Assembly (NCBI GenBank): GCA_038561985.1
Contig: CP073276.1
Location: 2,542,001-2,606,000, forward strand
Source: Petrimonas sulfuriphila
GTDB taxonomy: Bacteria; Bacteroidota; Bacteroidia; Bacteroidales; Dysgonomonadaceae
DNA: 64,000 bases
Direction of reading: 5' to 3'
A program made the position numbers and the translations under genes. This document shows, piece after piece, positions 15,586-23,396 of the stretch (its first letter is position 1; the number at the start of each line of letters is the position of its first letter). The notes under the pieces were generated by a model. The model was given only the letters and a program-made list of their open reading frames with translations, was not told the origin of the DNA and did not search any database.

Positions 15586-16593
15586 ATGAAGAACTTAAAC
15601 GCGGTTATTACAGGAGTTGCAGCAGCTGTCCCCGATTATATACTTACCAATGAGGAGCTATCGAGAATGGTAGATACTTCCGACGAGTGGATCATGACTC
15701 GTGTGGGAATTAAAGAGAGAAGAATTTTAAAAGGAGAAGAACAGGGAATATCTGTTTTAGGGACAAAAGCAGTAAAGGAACTGCTTGAGAAAACCCACAC
15801 CAAACCCGAAGAGGTTGATGGTGTGATTTTTGCTACAACAACGCCTGACCATCCCTTCCCATCCGCGGCATCTATCGTTGCTGAAAACAACGGGATAAAA
15901 AACGCTTTTTGTTTCGATATGGAAGTGGCTTGCTCGGGGTTTGTATATGGCCTTGAAGTATGTAACGGATTTATCAAGACCGGGAAATACAAAAAAGTTA
16001 TCCTGATTGCCGGTGATAAAATGTCGGCTGTAACAAACTATACCGACAGGGCTACTTGTCCCCTTTTTGGGGATGCTGCCGGAGCCGTTATGATTGAACC
16101 AACGGAAGAAAACTTGGGTATTGTCGATACAATTCTTCGTTCCGATGGTGCAGGTTACGCCCCGCTACAAATGAAAGCCGGTGGAAGTAAGTATCCCGCC
16201 ACTCACGAAACAGTGGATAACAATGAACATACCGTATATCAGGAAGGAAAAGTCGTATTTAAGTATGCCGTATCCAACATGGCACAGGTCTCGCTCGACA
16301 TTATGGAGCGTAATAACCTCACTCACGAAGATCTGGATTGGTTTGTGCCTCACCAGGCCAATATCCGCATTATCGATGCCGCCGTGGCTCGCGCCGGAGT
16401 TGCCCCCGAAAAAGTAATGATAAATATCGAACGTTATGGCAATACCAGTGCCGGAACCATTCCGCTTTGCTTATGGGAATGGGAGCGCAACCTCCGCAAG
16501 GGCGACAACATTATCCTCACCGCGTTCGGAGCAGGCTTCTCTTGGGGAAGTGTCTACCTGAAATGGGGGTACGATGGCAACAAGCAGAAATAA
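15586..16593 (+). CDS. fabH: 3-oxoacyl-ACP synthase III (KAS III)
   Basis: Condenses acyl-CoA with malonyl-ACP to start fatty acid synthesis. Of 335 residues, it has the complete triad: Cys116 (VACSGF), His256 (VPHQANIRI) and Asn286 ([10 protein letters not shown]). The C-terminal [13 protein letters not shown] is typical. Its place after yceD-rpmF matches many genomes. The gene ends 1 nt before the convergent lipocalin gene, so there is no room for a separate terminator. Confidence 0.97.
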
Positions 16594-16594
16594 T

Positions 16595-17134
16595 TCACGG
16601 ACGTTTATTGTGTTCAATCCACAAAAGGTCCGCTACATTATACCCGATATCCTGAGCTATCTTTAAGTATTTGCTTTTTATATCATCCGGGATGCTTGTT
16701 TCCCGGGACAGGATCCACAGATACTTTAAACTAGCTCCGGCGACCAATGCGTAGGTATAGTCCGGATCAATGGCAATGACGTTGTAACCCGAGTAAAATG
16801 GGCCAAAGAACGACACCTTCAGCATTGCCACATCCTCGGTTGCTACAAATTTTGCTTTTCCCACCGCTTGTTTCCATTCTTCTTTTTTTGTGTGGTACCC
16901 TTTATTGTCAACTTTAATGGTTCCGTCGGCATTCAAAGAATATTCAGCAGTGGTGTTGTCCAGGTCTTTCTCGTATTTAAAATCCAGCCTGGCAATCTCG
17001 TACCATTTACCAAGATATTTCTCTTTGTCAAAAGGTCTGACGGCAACAGCTCCCTTAGGGAGGGTGGAACAGGAAAAAAATGCGGACATAATGCCAATTA
17101 CAGTTAGAGATAAGAATAATTGTCTTTTTTTCAT
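16595..17134 (-). CDS. blc: Lipocalin lipoprotein (Blc-like)
   Basis: Bacterial lipocalin of 179 residues with a lipoprotein signal (AFFSC, Cys22). The diagnostic GxW motif is LGKWYEIARLDFKYEKDL, and the third motif region ends ILSRETSIPDD. Blc-type lipocalins sit in the outer membrane and bind fatty acids or lysophospholipids. It starts 23 nt after the polyferredoxin gene, so it is probably the last gene of the AKR-NapHG operon. ATG 17134 is chosen because it begins the signal peptide directly. Confidence 0.9.
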   Translation of the reverse strand: MKKRQLFLSLTVIGIMSAFFSCSTLPKGAVAVRPFDKEKYLGKWYEIARLDFKYEKDLDNTTAEYSLNADGTIKVDNKGYHTKKEEWKQAVGKAKFVATEDVAMLKVSFFGPFYSGYNVIAIDPDYTYALVAGASLKYLWILSRETSIPDDIKSKYLKIAQDIGYNVADLLWIEHNKRP

Positions 17135-17157
17135 TGATTTAAAAAGCTGTGGCCTTG

Positions 17158-18708
17158 TCAATTCAACGCCAAATGTTTTTTATACCCTTCCACAAATATA
17201 GCAGATAGCGGCCTTGCCGGGCAAATATATTCGCAGGCACCGCATCCGATGCACTTGTCTTTGTTCACTACGGGTACAAGCCGCAAATCAACCGTATTTG
17301 CGTCCGGCTGACCGGCCGGCGAAAGATAGCTTGCGCCGCTATCGCGGTACTCACGGGTAATGGCATCGGTAGGGCAGATACGCCAGCACCCGTCGCAGTT
17401 TACATCATCCTTCACCACGATGCAGTTCTCGCGTACATAAACGGCGTGTCCCATTGCCACTTTGGTCTTATCTCCTTTTGAAAGTTTTGTGATGGCGTCG
17501 GTAGGGCAAACATCTGAACAAACAGTGCAGTCGGTACGGCAATAACCGCGTTCAAAAGAGAGAGTAGGCTGCATAACCGCCGTCCATCCATATTCATTAA
17601 CCGATGGACGGATAATCTTATCGGGACATTGATTGACGCACAGCAGACAAGCCGTACATTTATCGTTGAGGTTGTCGTGACTTAACGACCCGGGAGGAGA
17701 AACAGGTATGGAGCGTTTATACCGGTCTTTACGAACGGCAGGAAATTTAATCATGCTTCTCTTTTTTTCTTGAGCCTTTAGCCCGGTTGCGCTAGCGACC
17801 ATCAGAAGTGAAGTTATGAAAAACTGTCTGCGGGAATTGTTCTCCGAAGAGACACCGACAATCTCCAACGGCTGTTTTTTAGCCGCCTTTTTTATTGAAT
17901 AGGTCATGCTGCCGTCTTTGCACGATTCAATACAGTTGAAGCAAGTAACACAACGCGTGTAATCGATGGTGTGATTTTTAAAGTCGATGCACGATGCTTT
18001 GCAATCTCTGGAGCACCTGCCGCACATGGTGCAGGAGGTTTTATCGATGCGGAGTTTCAGGATGGAGCACTTACTGAGGTAACCGAGAATAGTACCTACC
18101 GGACAGAAGGTATTGCAGTAAGTTCGTCCGCTTCTCCATGCCAGAAATCCGATGATCAATAGCGTGAGTGAGGCCAGCACCAACGAGAAAATGCTCTTTA
18201 TCCAGATTTCGGTAGGGGCAAATGTATAATGCTGAACTCCCAACACCTTTGCAAAAAGATTGTTAACAGCTCCGTAAACCGGACTAACTAATTCGGTAAC
18301 CATCCGGCCGTATGCTCCGTAAGGATCCAGAATAGCCGAAACAATACCGATTCCGGCAACAACCCCTACAATAAAAACGGCGAGAACTACTATTCTCAGC
18401 ACCGTTTTTGCAGCGGAAAAACTGTAGCGGCGTGTTTTTTTCGACTTTATTCTTCTGGCGAAGTAAGAAACAATATCCTGATATACTCCTGTAGGACAAA
18501 TAACTGAGCAGTAAATACGTCCGAAAACCAGAGTGAGCACAGCAAGCACGACCAGTACAACTACATTGAGTGCTAACAGGGCCGGGATAAATTGAAATTC
18601 GGCTAAAAAAGCAAAATTCTTGTGCAATACGCCCGAGATATCGAGAAACAGCAGGGAAATAACAATAAAACAGGCTATTGCCAAAGCAATTCTCATTTTC
18701 TTTAACAT
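17158..18708 (-). CDS. NapH-NapG fused membrane polyferredoxin
   Basis: Protein of 516 residues. The first part resembles quinol-oxidising NapH: membrane helices at about 7-25, 42-63, 103-127 and 170-192, CxxxCP motifs at 67-72 and 198-203, and two 4Fe-4S clusters (Cys226-236 and Cys253-263). A twin-arginine-like hydrophobic segment (SRRQFFITSLLMVASATG, 292-309) then leads into a NapG-like part with four more cysteine groups (351-361, 390-401, about 438-445, 486-496). E. coli NapG is a separate Tat-exported four-cluster protein, so this looks like a NapH::NapG fusion. No nap reductase is nearby; the AKR gene is 4 nt upstream. Expected to pass electrons from quinol to the periplasm. Confidence 0.85.
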   Translation of the reverse strand: MLKKMRIALAIACFIVISLLFLDISGVLHKNFAFLAEFQFIPALLALNVVVLVVLAVLTLVFGRIYCSVICPTGVYQDIVSYFARRIKSKKTRRYSFSAAKTVLRIVVLAVFIVGVVAGIGIVSAILDPYGAYGRMVTELVSPVYGAVNNLFAKVLGVQHYTFAPTEIWIKSIFSLVLASLTLLIIGFLAWRSGRTYCNTFCPVGTILGYLSKCSILKLRIDKTSCTMCGRCSRDCKASCIDFKNHTIDYTRCVTCFNCIESCKDGSMTYSIKKAAKKQPLEIVGVSSENNSRRQFFITSLLMVASATGLKAQEKKRSMIKFPAVRKDRYKRSIPVSPPGSLSHDNLNDKCTACLLCVNQCPDKIIRPSVNEYGWTAVMQPTLSFERGYCRTDCTVCSDVCPTDAITKLSKGDKTKVAMGHAVYVRENCIVVKDDVNCDGCWRICPTDAITREYRDSGASYLSPAGQPDANTVDLRLVPVVNKDKCIGCGACEYICPARPLSAIFVEGYKKHLALN

Positions 18709-18712
18709 GGTA

Positions 18713-20089
18713 TCAGGTAGTTTTTAGTTGTTGAACAAGATTATCGATTTTCAATAAATCGGTGGGGATTTTTATGTTCTGTGGACAAGTAGGTTCACAT
18801 TCACCGCAATTGATACAATGGTTTGCCTGTTCCAGTTCGGGAATAGTGCGGTTGTAATCTACCAGGAATGCCCTGGAAGCACGTTCGAATTCAGCATCAC
18901 GTTGCCCTTCGAGATCAGGAAGGTTACTGTCCCAGGTCGCCTTGTTGTAATAAAGCAAGATTCCGGGAATATCAACCCCATACGGACAAGGAACGCAATA
19001 TTTGCAATCCGTACACGGTATGATTTTGTAGGTGCGGATAATTTCCGCTGCTTTTGCCAACATGTCTTTCTGCTTATCGGTGACCGGAACAAGGGGAGAA
19101 TAGGTTTTTATGTTTTCCTGTAAATGTTCCATTAACGTCATACCGCTTAACACTACCATTACCTGTGGATGTGAACCCACAAACCGGAAAGCCCACTGTG
19201 CAGGCGTATCGCCAGGACGTTCTTCCTGCATCATTTCCGATACGGCACGGCTTACTTTTGCCAAACGGCTTCCCAGTAACGGCTCCATGATCATAACAGG
19301 AATATTTCGTTCCACCAGCCTGTTGTACATGTATTCCGCAGGAACACGGCCGTATTTCCAGTCGAAGTAATTCATCTGGATCATCACGAAATCCCAGTCC
19401 ACAGGCTCTGCAAGCACCTTGTCAAAAAGAGGCTGATCACCGTGAAAAGACCATCCCAGATTCCGGATGCGTCCTTCTTTCTTTTCATTCAGCAGAAAGT
19501 CCAGCATCCCCCATTCTTTGTAAATACGTTCGTACATGACATCGCTGCTTAAGCTGTGCAGGTGATAGTAATCAAAATAATCTACCTGAAGTTTCTCCAA
19601 TTGTTTGTGATACGTGGCAATGGCATCCTCTCTCGATTTCACACTGCCCGGCAATTTTGTTGCCAGGTAAAAGCTGTTGCGGGGGTATTTTTTCAGGAGT
19701 TTACCGGTAACAATTTCCGATTCTCCCTGATGATACATCCATGCGGTGTCAAAATAGTTTATGCCATGTGCTATGGCGTAATCCACCAATTGTCCTGCTT
19801 TTTCTTCATCGATGAATTTTCTTATCCCTTCGGGTGTTTCTCGTTCCACGGTAGGATAACGCATCGTACCAAAACCGAGAAGCGAAATCTTGTCACCCGT
19901 TTTAGACAAGGCTGTATATGTCATTTTGTCGGTAGGAATATTGGTCAAATCCGGAACGGGTTGGCTCTTGTCGGTTTTTTTTGTGCAGCCGCCCAAATAT
20001 AGGCTTGCCGGAATAACCGCAGCACCCAATCCCATGTATTTCAAAGCTGTTCTTCGCGAAATTTTTTGTTTTCCGTCATTTTCTTTCAT
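18713..20089 (-). CDS. Tat-exported lipoprotein aldo/keto reductase with ferredoxin domain
   Basis: Protein of 458 residues. The Tat signal SRRTALKYMG (11-20) ends in a lipobox with Cys35, so it should be exported folded and lipid-anchored. The AKR barrel keeps the full catalytic tetrad Asp114 (NYFDTAW), Tyr119 (MYHQGE), Lys145 (LATKLPG) and His178 (YHLHSL). The C-terminus adds ferredoxin-like cysteines CTDCKYCVPCPYG and CINCGECEPTCP. Normal AKRs use cytoplasmic NADPH, so a cluster-bearing exported version paired with a membrane polyferredoxin suggests electron supply from quinol. ATG 20089 is preferred; ATG 20098 would add three residues. Confidence 0.88.
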   Translation of the reverse strand: MKENDGKQKISRRTALKYMGLGAAVIPASLYLGGCTKKTDKSQPVPDLTNIPTDKMTYTALSKTGDKISLLGFGTMRYPTVERETPEGIRKFIDEEKAGQLVDYAIAHGINYFDTAWMYHQGESEIVTGKLLKKYPRNSFYLATKLPGSVKSREDAIATYHKQLEKLQVDYFDYYHLHSLSSDVMYERIYKEWGMLDFLLNEKKEGRIRNLGWSFHGDQPLFDKVLAEPVDWDFVMIQMNYFDWKYGRVPAEYMYNRLVERNIPVMIMEPLLGSRLAKVSRAVSEMMQEERPGDTPAQWAFRFVGSHPQVMVVLSGMTLMEHLQENIKTYSPLVPVTDKQKDMLAKAAEIIRTYKIIPCTDCKYCVPCPYGVDIPGILLYYNKATWDSNLPDLEGQRDAEFERASRAFLVDYNRTIPELEQANHCINCGECEPTCPQNIKIPTDLLKIDNLVQQLKTT

Positions 20090-20388: not shown

Positions 20389-21459
20389 ATGAGAAAGGTA
20401 TTGGTTGATTTATCAGCCCTGAATAATATATACAGTGGGTTTGGACAGATAGCGTTGACTTACGGCAAATATTTTGAGAATAATTATAAAAAAGGAACTG
20501 CTCGTTATTCTCTTACATTGCTGGTTCCTGACGATATGATGGGCAAGTTTGGCAACGAGGTCAACTACCTCTCATCATCCAAACGACTCAAAAGACGATT
20601 CCCATTTTTATTTCCAAAGTTTGATGTTTGGCATTCGACACATCAGTTAAGCAAGTTCAGACCTTTCTATTCTGGTACAAAACAGATACTGACATTCCAT
20701 GATCTGAACTATCTGTACGAAAGAAAAGGATTTAGCCGATACAGAAAACACCGTCAAATCCAGGGGAAAATAGACCGGGCAAATCAACTGGTTTGTATTT
20801 CTCACTTTACCAAAGAAGAAGTAGAGAGAAATCTGAACCTTAACGGAAAGAAATGCAGCGTGATTTACAATTACGTAGAGCCTTTTAATGAAAGTATGGC
20901 CTCTAAACCCAGTATCGATATTAAAATGCCTTTTTTCTTCTCTATTGGCGCTTTGCGGAAAAAGAAAAACTTCCACGTCTTGCTTGATTTAATGAAGTTA
21001 TATCCTGGAAAACATCTTTATATCGCGGGTACGGAAGCCAAAAAAAAGAAAAAAAATGCATATGCCCTAATGATGAAAGAACGCATCAAAAATGAGGGGA
21101 TAACGAATGTTACCTTGCTTGGTGGAATTCTGCATAAGGAAAAAATATGGATGTATAAGAACTGCGAGGCTTTTCTTTTTCCTTCGTTGTTTGAAGGCTT
21201 TGGGTTGCCAGTAATTGAAGCCATGCAGTTTGGAAAACCGGTGTTCTCTTCAGCGGAAACAAGCCTGAAAGAAATAGGTGGAAAGTTTGCTTATTTCTGG
21301 GATCATTTTGATGCATACTCCATGAAATCTCTAATAGATAATAACTTGGAGGAATTTTATAACGACAGAGAATGGATACGGAAAGAAAAACAATATGCGG
21401 AATCATTTTCGACTAACAACCATTTCGAAGAGTATGAAAAGCTATATGAGTCCATATGA
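20389..21459 (+). CDS. Family 4-type glycosyltransferase (GT-B)
   Basis: Glycosyltransferase of 356 residues with no signal peptide. The GT-B C-terminal domain has FSIGALRKKKNF (donor-site start), a sugar-nucleotide binding region, and the EX7E signature around FPSLFEGFGLPVIEAMQFG. The N-terminal acceptor domain contains DVWHSTHQ and LTFHDLNYL. It likely adds a sugar in envelope polysaccharide or LPS synthesis. It overlaps the start of the following Stealth gene, so the two are coupled. Confidence 0.88.
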   Translation: MRKVLVDLSALNNIYSGFGQIALTYGKYFENNYKKGTARYSLTLLVPDDMMGKFGNEVNYLSSSKRLKRRFPFLFPKFDVWHSTHQLSKFRPFYSGTKQILTFHDLNYLYERKGFSRYRKHRQIQGKIDRANQLVCISHFTKEEVERNLNLNGKKCSVIYNYVEPFNESMASKPSIDIKMPFFFSIGALRKKKNFHVLLDLMKLYPGKHLYIAGTEAKKKKKNAYALMMKERIKNEGITNVTLLGGILHKEKIWMYKNCEAFLFPSLFEGFGLPVIEAMQFGKPVFSSAETSLKEIGGKFAYFWDHFDAYSMKSLIDNNLEEFYNDREWIRKEKQYAESFSTNNHFEEYEKLYESI

Positions 21460-22390
21460 AATTGATCTGGTTTATCTGTGGGTCGATGGTGGCGACCCGG
21501 AATGGTTGGCCAAGAAAAGAGAATATTTAGAGAATAAAACCAGCTTGAATATCGAGGCCACTTCAAAGGCGCGTGTCGCCGACAATGATGAATTAAGATA
21601 TTCACTACGTTCTGCAGAGAAATATGTTCCCTGGATCCGGAAAGTTTTTATCGTTACCGATGAGCAAAAGCCTAAATGGCTGAATCTGAAAAACGAAAAG
21701 GTGGAAGTTATAGATATCCGTGCGCTTATTCCGCCCGAAGCCTTGCCATGTTACAACTCGGTAATCATTGAACATTATTTATATAAAATTCCCGGCTTAT
21801 CGGAACATTTTCTTTACGCTAACGACGATATGTTTTTCAATGCTAAAATAGGTCCTGAATTCTTTTTCAATTCTGAAGGAATGCCGATTGTGCGCTTGCA
21901 GCGTGCATTTTTAGGAAATTGGATGAGTCGAATAAGGGGGATATTCAATATTCCTACCAATATCTATCGAAAAACCATTGACAGAGCAGCCCGATTAATC
22001 AAAGAGAAATTTGGGAAATATTATTCCGGCACTCCGCACCATAATATAGATTCGTATCTGAAAACAGATTACAGAAACGTGGTAGAAAAAGATTTCAAGG
22101 ATGAAATTTTATCGACCCTGATCAATCACCTGAGAAGTGAACACGACATCCAACGGATCATTTACTCATACTATGCCTTGGTAAAAAAAAGGGGAGTGCT
22201 CCGTTACGTGAGCCGAAAAGAATCTTGTCGTATCCGGCTGCAAAAACCTGATTTTATGGATTATATCATGTCGTATAATCCAGTGCTTTTCTGTCTGAAC
22301 GATACTCATCGGGCAACAGATAAAGATCGTGAGAGGGTGAAGCCCTTTTTAGAAGCTCTCTTTCCTGAAAAATCGGGTTATGAACTGTAG
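21434..22390 (+). CDS. Stealth-family sugar-phosphate transferase
   Basis: Stealth proteins transfer sugar-1-phosphate in capsule or phosphoglycan synthesis and are related to GlcNAc-1-phosphotransferase. All four regions are seen: CR1 IDLVYLWVDGGDPEW, CR2 RVADNDELRYSLRSAEKY with PWIRKVFIVTDEQKPKWL, CR3 around FLYANDDMFF and the PHHNIDSYLK segment, and CR4 FCLNDTH. About 318 residues from ATG 21434, which overlaps the glycosyltransferase end by 26 nt; ATG 21446 is also possible. The C-terminus LFPEKSGYEL resembles that of the Stealth gene facing it. Confidence 0.88.
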   Translation: MKSYMSPYEIDLVYLWVDGGDPEWLAKKREYLENKTSLNIEATSKARVADNDELRYSLRSAEKYVPWIRKVFIVTDEQKPKWLNLKNEKVEVIDIRALIPPEALPCYNSVIIEHYLYKIPGLSEHFLYANDDMFFNAKIGPEFFFNSEGMPIVRLQRAFLGNWMSRIRGIFNIPTNIYRKTIDRAARLIKEKFGKYYSGTPHHNIDSYLKTDYRNVVEKDFKDEILSTLINHLRSEHDIQRIIYSYYALVKKRGVLRYVSRKESCRIRLQKPDFMDYIMSYNPVLFCLNDTHRATDKDRERVKPFLEALFPEKSGYEL

Positions 22391-22403: not shown

Positions 22404-23396
22404 TTACAATTCAAAGCTCGACTTTTCTGGGAGAATACTTTCAAAAGATGCTTTTAATTCTTTGAGCTTTTTATCGTAGTTCCGAATATGTATGTTGTCA
22501 TTTAAGCAGACAAGTTTGTATTTTTGTTCGCGGACAGCACGGATTGCTTTTTTAGATTTCAAAATAAGAGGGAACATCTTTGTGTCTTGATAGGTGTTGT
22601 AGGGTAGGAATTTTGAAGTGCAAATTTGCCAGGTCTTGAATAATTCAGGTGTAAGGTCGGAAGAACTTCTGAACCTGTTTTTCGACATTTCGGTCAATTC
22701 CTTTCCACAATTATCCCAAACTTCATGAAACGTAGATTTTAGAAAAGGCTGCGCATTGTGCGGGGTTCGCAGTGTCACAAACTTATTGTATGGTTTTAGC
22801 AGATATGCTAACCTTCTCCTTTTGCCGTACGATTCATGAAACCATTTATCGTAATCCCTTTTTAAAACCTCTTTTTTATCAAAAAACTTATTGATCAGTC
22901 TGATGTTATTCTTCAGCATCTTACCAAACTGAGAACGTCCAAAGTTAGTGCGAAAAGTGGCAATGTCTTTAGGAAGTCCATTTTCGAAGAAACGAGTTGC
23001 AGGGGTATGGTCTGTTACAAAAAAATCATCGTTAAAATAGACAAATTGTTCCGCTAAATCGGGGATTTTATGCAAATAAATTTCTATCAAATTTGAATTG
23101 AATACAGGTAGATATTGTTCAGGAATAAAATCTTCGTGATTAACTATATGCAGCTTTGAATGATTCTCATTTAGCCATTCTGGTTTTTGTCCGCAGGTGA
23201 CAAAATGAATTTTTCGTACCCAAGGGGTAAATTTTTCTATTCCCCTGAACCAGTATTTTAGTAGCCCATAGTCTCTGAATCTAGCTTCTGACAACTCATT
23301 TACCGTGTTGTCTATTTTCCCCGAATAGATGGCAAAATCTTTTTGCCATCTCGGGTCATTCATATCTACCCAGGTTATTACAAAATCAATTTCCAC
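22404..23396 (-). CDS. Second Stealth-family protein, convergent
   Basis: Protein of 330 residues with CR1 IDFVITWVDMNDPRW, CR2 RFRDYGLLKYWFRGIEKF and PWVRKIHFVTCGQKPEWLN, CR3 QFVYFNDDFFV with the RTPHNAQPFLK segment, and CR4 VCLNDNIHI. In CR2 the usual DNDELRYSLRS is RDYGLLKYWFRG, typical of the other Stealth subgroup, so this is not a recent duplicate. It ends LPEKSSFEL. It lies tail to tail with the first Stealth gene, 13 nt apart, and probably modifies the same surface glycan. Confidence 0.88.
   Translation of the reverse strand: MEIDFVITWVDMNDPRWQKDFAIYSGKIDNTVNELSEARFRDYGLLKYWFRGIEKFTPWVRKIHFVTCGQKPEWLNENHSKLHIVNHEDFIPEQYLPVFNSNLIEIYLHKIPDLAEQFVYFNDDFFVTDHTPATRFFENGLPKDIATFRTNFGRSQFGKMLKNNIRLINKFFDKKEVLKRDYDKWFHESYGKRRRLAYLLKPYNKFVTLRTPHNAQPFLKSTFHEVWDNCGKELTEMSKNRFRSSSDLTPELFKTWQICTSKFLPYNTYQDTKMFPLILKSKKAIRAVREQKYKLVCLNDNIHIRNYDKKLKELKASFESILPEKSSFEL

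Follow-up and report, generated by a model that had tools for sequence, protein, structure and literature searches.

A predicted extracytoplasmic aldo/keto reductase and NapH-NapG polyferredoxin module in Petrimonas sulfuriphila and other Bacteroidales

The window, a 64,000-nucleotide (nt) stretch of the single 3.83 Mb contig that makes up the genome of Petrimonas sulfuriphila (CP073276.1, positions 2,542,001 to 2,606,000), contains three closely spaced genes on its minus strand. The first encodes an aldo/keto reductase (AKR) with an export-type leader and a C-terminal ferredoxin domain, the second, 4 nt further on, a fusion of NapH- and NapG-type polyferredoxins (NapHG), and the third, after another 23 nt, a lipocalin. 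Comparison of genomes suggests that the first two form a real, conserved module, undescribed as far as the literature search reaches. All three open reading frames, together with their spacing, are as described in the original prediction, in which they formed an extracytoplasmic, quinol-driven carbonyl reductase system. The features are as follows.

18713..20089, minus strand: AKR, 458 amino acids, ATG at 20089 (open reading frame and Pfam)
19985..20089, minus strand: AKR leader, residues 1-35, with SRRTALK, a hydrophobic stretch and the lipobox LGGC (sequence)
18776..19015, minus strand: AKR ferredoxin domain, residues 359-438, CX2CX2CX2CP and CX2CX2CX3CP (Pfam Fer4_9; alignment)
17158..18708, minus strand: NapH-NapG fusion polyferredoxin, 516 amino acids, with a NapH-like membrane part and a NapG-like iron-sulfur (Fe-S) part (Pfam)
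17761..17838, minus strand: internal twin-arginine segment of NapHG, residues 291-316, which links the NapH and NapG parts (sequence)
16595..17134, minus strand: Blc-like lipocalin lipoprotein, 179 amino acids, ATG at 17134 (PF08212)

The AKR is matched by the barrel family PF00248 at 130.1 bits (cut-off 24) and, in its C-terminal part, by Fer4_9 at 35.3 bits (cut-off 27). Its AlphaFold model (pLDDT 90.2, pTM 0.84) matches AKR folds, the best Foldseek hit being AKR11C1 (E 4.7e-16). No solved structure of an Fe-S AKR was found, as matches stop at profile position 296 of 394 in a profile search (E ≤1e-20) and, among the 60 matches listed in a single-sequence structure search (E ≤0.001), none passes AKR residue 349. 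The Asp-Tyr-Lys-His tetrad (D114, Y119, K145, H178) and the eight ferredoxin cysteines (359/362/365/368 and 425/428/431/435), both pointed out in the original prediction, are invariant in 56/56 rows of an alignment of the window protein with 55 homologues hand-picked from the fetched set. That the barrel serves purely as a redox sensor or scaffold without enzymatic activity, as it does in Kv beta, which is found among the fold matches, is hardly credible in view of a complete tetrad in every row.

The linkage of the two genes was followed in 99 AKR loci (80 named and 19 fetched neighbourhoods), 95 of which were compared, L036 and L039 being left out as they lie on the same contigs as L056 and L060, and L060 and L127 because the AKR is truncated; the short first loci, L001-L035, were dropped before the counts and re-fetched at a larger size where used. 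An export-type leader, judged by our own patterns and by eye and not by SignalP, is present in 48 of the 95 AKRs, and 44 of these 48 adjoin NapHG-type genes (>50 bits), against none of the 47 leaderless ones. The two genes share a strand in 44/44 pairs and, going by longest-frame starts, are at most 33 nt apart or overlap in 43; the pair in L106 is interrupted by a gene for a secreted flavodoxin. NapHG comes first in 25 pairs and the AKR in 19. Within 4 kb of the 47 leaderless AKRs, 35 of which are flanked by 2 kb or more of sequence in either direction, NapHG, FMN_bind, flavodoxin and TatC are all absent. As for the four leader-bearing exceptions, the AKR of L054 is followed by a NapH-like flavoprotein (FMN_bind 55.0 and Fer4_5 60.6 bits) and that of L081 by an FMN_bind protein (51.1 bits), both with an [S/T]GA[S/T] motif; the contig of L083 stops right after the AKR, and L046 (genome G054) has no adjacent carrier, an AKR-type NapHG lying on another contig of the same genome.

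Two broader samples, which share genomes and are hence not independent, agree with these counts. In the class sample (295 genomes), nine AKR loci in seven genomes all adjoin NapHG, and the 13 NapHG loci, in nine genomes, lie beside an AKR in nine cases and beside a DUF362 gene in four. In the order sample (393 genomes), NapHG occurs in 186 genomes and the AKR in 80, and 69/77 AKR loci of at least 500 bits adjoin NapHG by coordinates. Adjacency of AKR and NapHG is thus more frequent than chance and recurs across the order. The distribution of the AKR is patchy, since a first sample of relatives has 17 AKR loci (>400 bits) in 16/61 genomes and in the genus 3/9 genomes have it, the window's included. 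The closest named genome met, Petrimonas sp. IBARAKI, has an AKR 100% identical to that of the window, and many of the record titles of homologue loci refer to rumen and gut assemblies.

The conservation seen for the AKR-NapHG pair does not extend to the lipocalin, which is matched by PF08212 at 134.6 bits (cut-off 24) and by NF007786 at 205.7 bits, under its cut-off of 267. Among close loci (AKR identity ≥76%; L038 is untestable, as its contig ends), it lies 3' of the pair in 2/7 testable ones, namely L055, which is the window's own, and L060, where it is split over two overlapping frames. It is absent after NapHG in L056, L037, L057, L058 and L059, and did not turn up in the sequence retrieved around the remaining AKR-NapHG pairs. 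The original prediction had the lipocalin present a lipid-derived aldehyde or ketone to the AKR in a three-gene system, for which the spacing of 4 and 23 nt and the occurrence in L060 speak. With the lipocalin not conserved, that idea loses its footing: the three-gene system is largely refuted and must be considered very improbable, and the lipocalin, rejected as a core component, looks like an incidental local neighbour. A lipocalin gene also lies 3.1 kb from the leaderless AKR of L111 on the opposite strand, which is taken as chance.

Around these genes, the window has at 15586-16593, convergent with the end of the lipocalin gene, a gene whose product we take from its sequence to be beta-ketoacyl-ACP synthase III-like, and on the other side two similar-looking convergent genes, 21395-22390 (plus strand), encoding a Stealth-family protein (Stealth_CR1, CR2, CR4), and 22404-23396 (minus strand). 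A promoter scan gave 7 matches against a shuffle mean of 8.0, that is, no excess, and a terminator scan 9 against 4.8 in shuffles; neither is used as evidence.

The leader of the AKR, with SRRTALK, a hydrophobic stretch and LGGC, is of the twin-arginine translocation (Tat) lipoprotein type, as originally proposed, and the genome encodes TatC (207.4 bits, cut-off 25.1), directly preceded by TatA (TatA_B_E 51.3 bits, cut-off 21), so that export by Tat is predicted. MenD, of menaquinone synthesis, is encoded as well (360.5 bits, cut-off 244.2). The twin arginine is in place in 41/48 leader-bearing homologues, counted by eye because a regular-expression figure of 47/48 also took in arginine pairs lying elsewhere than in the motif; six leaders, all from Rikenellaceae, have R-A and one R-K. 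In L041, L042, L106, L147, L148 and L149, a TatC gene is located no more than about 3 kb away from the AKR-NapHG pair.

NapHG has the hallmarks of a NapH-NapG polyferredoxin, with a membrane part matched by Fer4_5 (53.8 bits, cut-off 22), NapG-like clusters matched by Fer4 (70.1 bits, cut-off 21.1) and the internal twin arginine. It scores far under the NapH and NapG equivalog cut-offs (NF007012, 69.5 against 269; TIGR02163, 68.2 against 213.05; NF007013, 54.2 against 234). A Pfam scan gave no FMN_bind match in it, and the ApbE of the genome is encoded elsewhere, away from the locus. A NapH-NapG fusion of the same kind has been shown to require both Sec and Tat, and NapG is said to carry four clusters (PMC5449189); NapH-like modules are reported to serve, over and again, many different reductases and oxidases (PMC8238504).

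The tree of the 95 AKRs unites 46 exported rows in a single branch (support 99/98) and places the exported L106 and L054 in another, otherwise leaderless and mainly Bacillota clade (100/100), so that the starred branches require at least two changes between the exported and the leaderless state. We read these as two gains of export, in both of which an electron carrier lies next to the AKR gene; whether they are gains or losses hinges on the midpoint root, and L054 (1.08) and L106 (0.44) are long branches, for which the tool warned of long-branch attraction. We also considered whether the ferredoxin domain adapts the AKR to export and reject this, as the aligned leaderless homologues have all eight cysteines too. 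In the NapHG tree (77 rows), 45 AKR-adjacent rows and 7 from genomes with an unlinked AKR make up one group of 52 (91/94, just under the tool's star threshold), apart from which fall 24 DUF362-linked rows; an AKR-type NapHG is therefore recognisable even where linkage was lost. The NapHG of L106 lies outside this group and far from the others (length 3.9), which would fit a separate assembly of that pair.

Flavin carriers recur near the AKR. Flavodoxin_4 proteins with signal-like N-termini are encoded near it in L042, L045, L106 and L146. In L045 (4383-5009) and L146 (4066-4746), SGAS or TGAS stands ahead of the matched flavodoxin core, and this [S/T]GA[S/T] motif, not present in the L042 and L106 flavodoxins, is possibly a covalent flavin site in Bacteroidales; the motif is reported to be flavinylated by ApbE, and flavinylated flavodoxins with such an insertion have been described (PMC11334425). 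L163 encodes an FMN_red protein with an RR leader between NapHG and the AKR, and L162 has one ahead of its AKR.

Taken together, these data make it fairly probable that the two genes form an extracytoplasmic redox module in which an Fe-S AKR exchanges electrons with the membrane through NapHG, their wiring being well supported by comparison. Of the original interpretation, the leader-bearing Fe-S AKR tied to a NapH/NapG-type polyferredoxin is thereby retained and the lipocalin part is dropped. After folding and taking up two [4Fe-4S] clusters in the cytoplasm, the AKR would leave via Tat and be tethered as a lipoprotein. Within NapHG, the NapH part would lie in the inner membrane with its clusters at the cytoplasmic face, and the NapG part would be exported via the internal twin-arginine segment and carry further clusters, probably four, outside. 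The donor would be menaquinol or, by way of the cytoplasmic clusters, reduced ferredoxin, and electrons would be exchanged between the membrane and the AKR clusters through NapG and pass onward to the active site, where the tetrad would act as proton donor, the acceptor being most likely easier to reduce than a simple aldehyde. That the AKR does without soluble NAD(P)H, its two [4Fe-4S] clusters being fed by the membrane polyferredoxin, and that such an arrangement was assembled at least twice, each time with a membrane-bound or secreted electron carrier, is put forward tentatively, as the more doubtful claim.

Several observations weigh against the two-gene module. Eight of the 77 high-scoring AKR loci in the order sample, and all 15 weaker ones, are not adjacent to NapHG: among the former, the NapHG is cut by a contig end in G037 (L051), lies 1.7 kb away in G551 and 5.6 kb away in G658, and is on another contig in G054, G689 and G563, and G404 and G504 have second AKR copies with no NapHG beside them; among the weaker ones, for which a 600-nt adjacency rule was applied, two (G357:C26 and G471) have NapHG 1.2 and 2.9 kb off. 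The pair of L082 has the NapG-like half only, and L084 and L088 have unfused reading frames for NapH and NapG. To these are added the R-A leaders of the six Rikenellaceae AKRs, the lack of a flavin carrier adjoining the AKR-NapHG pair in the window (Fe-S clusters are not known to reduce NAD(P) without a flavin), a NapHG structure model too poor for use (pLDDT 60.5), the root and long branches of the AKR tree, the pairing of NapHG with DUF362 as well as with the AKR, the energetics of menaquinol and the partly retained nucleotide site, the last three of which are taken up below.

At standard potentials of about -75 mV for menaquinol and about -190 mV for a simple aldehyde or ketone, menaquinol is a poor donor for simple carbonyls, and the module may therefore have an easier substrate, a ferredoxin donor or an oxidative direction. 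In the last case, the AKR would oxidise an alcohol or lactol outside and NapHG would pass the electrons into menaquinone, the flow that these potentials favour. Anaerobes are, however, generally short of electron sinks rather than sources, and the exported flavodoxin, FMN_red and FMN_bind partners fit reductive delivery, although not exclusively. Several of the closest folds to the AKR model are L-galactose dehydrogenases, a likeness in line with oxidation but at only 21-24% identity, and NapH-like clusters are reported with the extracytosolic alcohol oxidase ExaA (PMC8238504). On balance, the oxidative direction is considered unlikely.

The nucleotide site bears on a further alternative. Ser214, Gln238 and Asn326 are retained as in leaderless homologues, so a nicotinamide may be bound, and Ser214, His216, Met268, Glu269, Gly316 and Asn326 are invariant (56/56), whether the row is exported or leaderless; that the nucleotide site was lost upon export was considered as well, but this alignment does not show it. 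L004, a canonical AKR encoded by the same genome, has residues which we take to be the nicotinamide-side Asn, the aromatic that stacks, and the 2'-phosphate-site Lys and Arg; in the Fe-S AKR these are replaced, the Lys by G316, the Arg by the variable residue 324 and the aromatic by M268. Two other exported-type AKRs of the genome, both without an Fe-S domain, differ at the same positions too: L005 (G000:C1:3607589), with an SRRKF leader, and L002 (G000:C1:343798), with a KREF leader. A cofactor may be bound in the same pocket, and a self-contained AKR can be envisaged in which NAD(P)H is co-exported, as in glucose-fructose oxidoreductase, whose tightly bound NAD(P) is co-exported by Tat, the clusters are structural, and NapHG acts elsewhere or re-reduces the nucleotide via a flavoprotein. 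The partly retained site, the RR- and KREF-leader AKRs without Fe-S domain and the RR-leader FMN_red proteins before the AKR in L162 and L163 would suit such an enzyme. Against it stand the close tracking of the export leader of the Fe-S AKR by NapHG and the replacement of the presumed 2'-phosphate and stacking residues, which leave it rather improbable, somewhat more so than the oxidative direction.

The second partner of NapHG is DUF362. Of 31 fetched loci in which NapHG has no AKR next to it, 24 have a DUF362 gene with an RR leader directly beside NapHG; four of the 24 come from the class sample and 20 were chosen by us, non-randomly, over the order list (12 from the best 93 NapHG rows and eight from lower scores). 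The other seven (L157, L159, L161-L165), fetched because their genomes contain an unlinked AKR, have neither gene directly adjacent. Among the best 93 NapHG rows of the order sample, 69 lie beside an AKR, 14 beside DUF362 and seven beside neither, with three (G621, G467, G560) outside the partner count. The window's genome has such a second locus at 2020456-2022954 (L138:8403-10954), whose NapHG is 47% identical to that of the window; its DUF362 protein has an RR leader, and a TonB receptor, a phosphoribosyltransferase and an ECF-like protein are encoded nearby. DUF362 partners have 3-8 cysteines in the 20 counted, and no relative was found in the PDB at E ≤1. DUF362 and the lactate racemase DUF2088 belong to one Pfam clan (PMC11770544).

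With regard to the substrate, NapHG of both the AKR and the DUF362 type repeatedly has two neighbours, a TonB receptor and an ECF-like membrane protein, the latter assigned by a weak Pfam hit (18.7 bits, below the cut-off of 30.7), and TatC lies mostly near the AKR type and once near the DUF362 type (L175). Among NapHG loci, DUF1893 (TM1506) is found only around the AKR (L040-L044, L144, L147, L149). The ECF-like and DUF1893 genes stand beside exported AKRs in L041, L042, L043, L147 and L149 and also adjoin leaderless AKRs in L097 and L098, a recurrence beside both kinds of Fe-S AKR that hints at an imported small molecule as substrate. In the Rikenellaceae loci L062, L065, L067, L068, L069 and L133, an esterase-like gene (BD-FAE in L062) lies just upstream of the pair.

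AKRs are taught as cytoplasmic NADPH enzymes, and the module, if it works as proposed, would be a new way of powering a family held to run on NADPH and would give extracytoplasmic electron transfer in Bacteroidales a new kind of terminal oxidoreductase. It would also pose a clear chemical question, namely how AKR catalysis draws on Fe-S clusters, and open the function of NapH-NapG fusions to experiment, as their other partner, DUF362, is without assigned function in Pfam.

Among known proteins, the closest to the AKR are leaderless Fe-S AKRs of anaerobes, which we take to be COG1453; they share the barrel, the tetrad and the two-cluster C-terminal domain, but lack a leader, and none of the 47 compared has NapHG within 4 kb. 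A COG1453 AKR is filed under function unknown in one paper (PMC5395762). Among the matches listed in the open-access literature searched, subscription papers being mostly outside it, none describes an AKR, exported or with Fe-S clusters, together with NapHG. NapHG shares a NapH membrane part, a NapG Fe-S part and an internal twin arginine with NapH/NapG of periplasmic nitrate reduction and with NapH-NapG fusions (PMC5449189), but scores below their equivalog cut-offs and has an AKR, or elsewhere DUF362, as partner. Flavinylated extracytosolic systems with NapH-like proteins (PMC8238504, PMC11334425) likewise have a modular membrane donor for varied exported oxidoreductases, and L054, with FMN_bind and Fer4_5, fits their published definition, whereas the window's NapHG has no FMN_bind match; the strings "aldo" and "keto" occur 0 times in the main texts of these two papers. 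MsrP/MsrQ (PMC5449189) is also a Tat-exported reductase fed by a membrane partner tied to the respiratory chain, but consists of a molybdenum enzyme and a haem protein of unrelated folds. Also comparable are the NapHG-DUF362 loci, which have a homologous NapHG, an RR-leader partner and, in some cases, the same ECF-like, TonB and TatC neighbours, and which differ from the AKR type in their cysteine-containing DUF362 partner (3-8 Cys) and in a NapHG that falls outside the AKR-type group.

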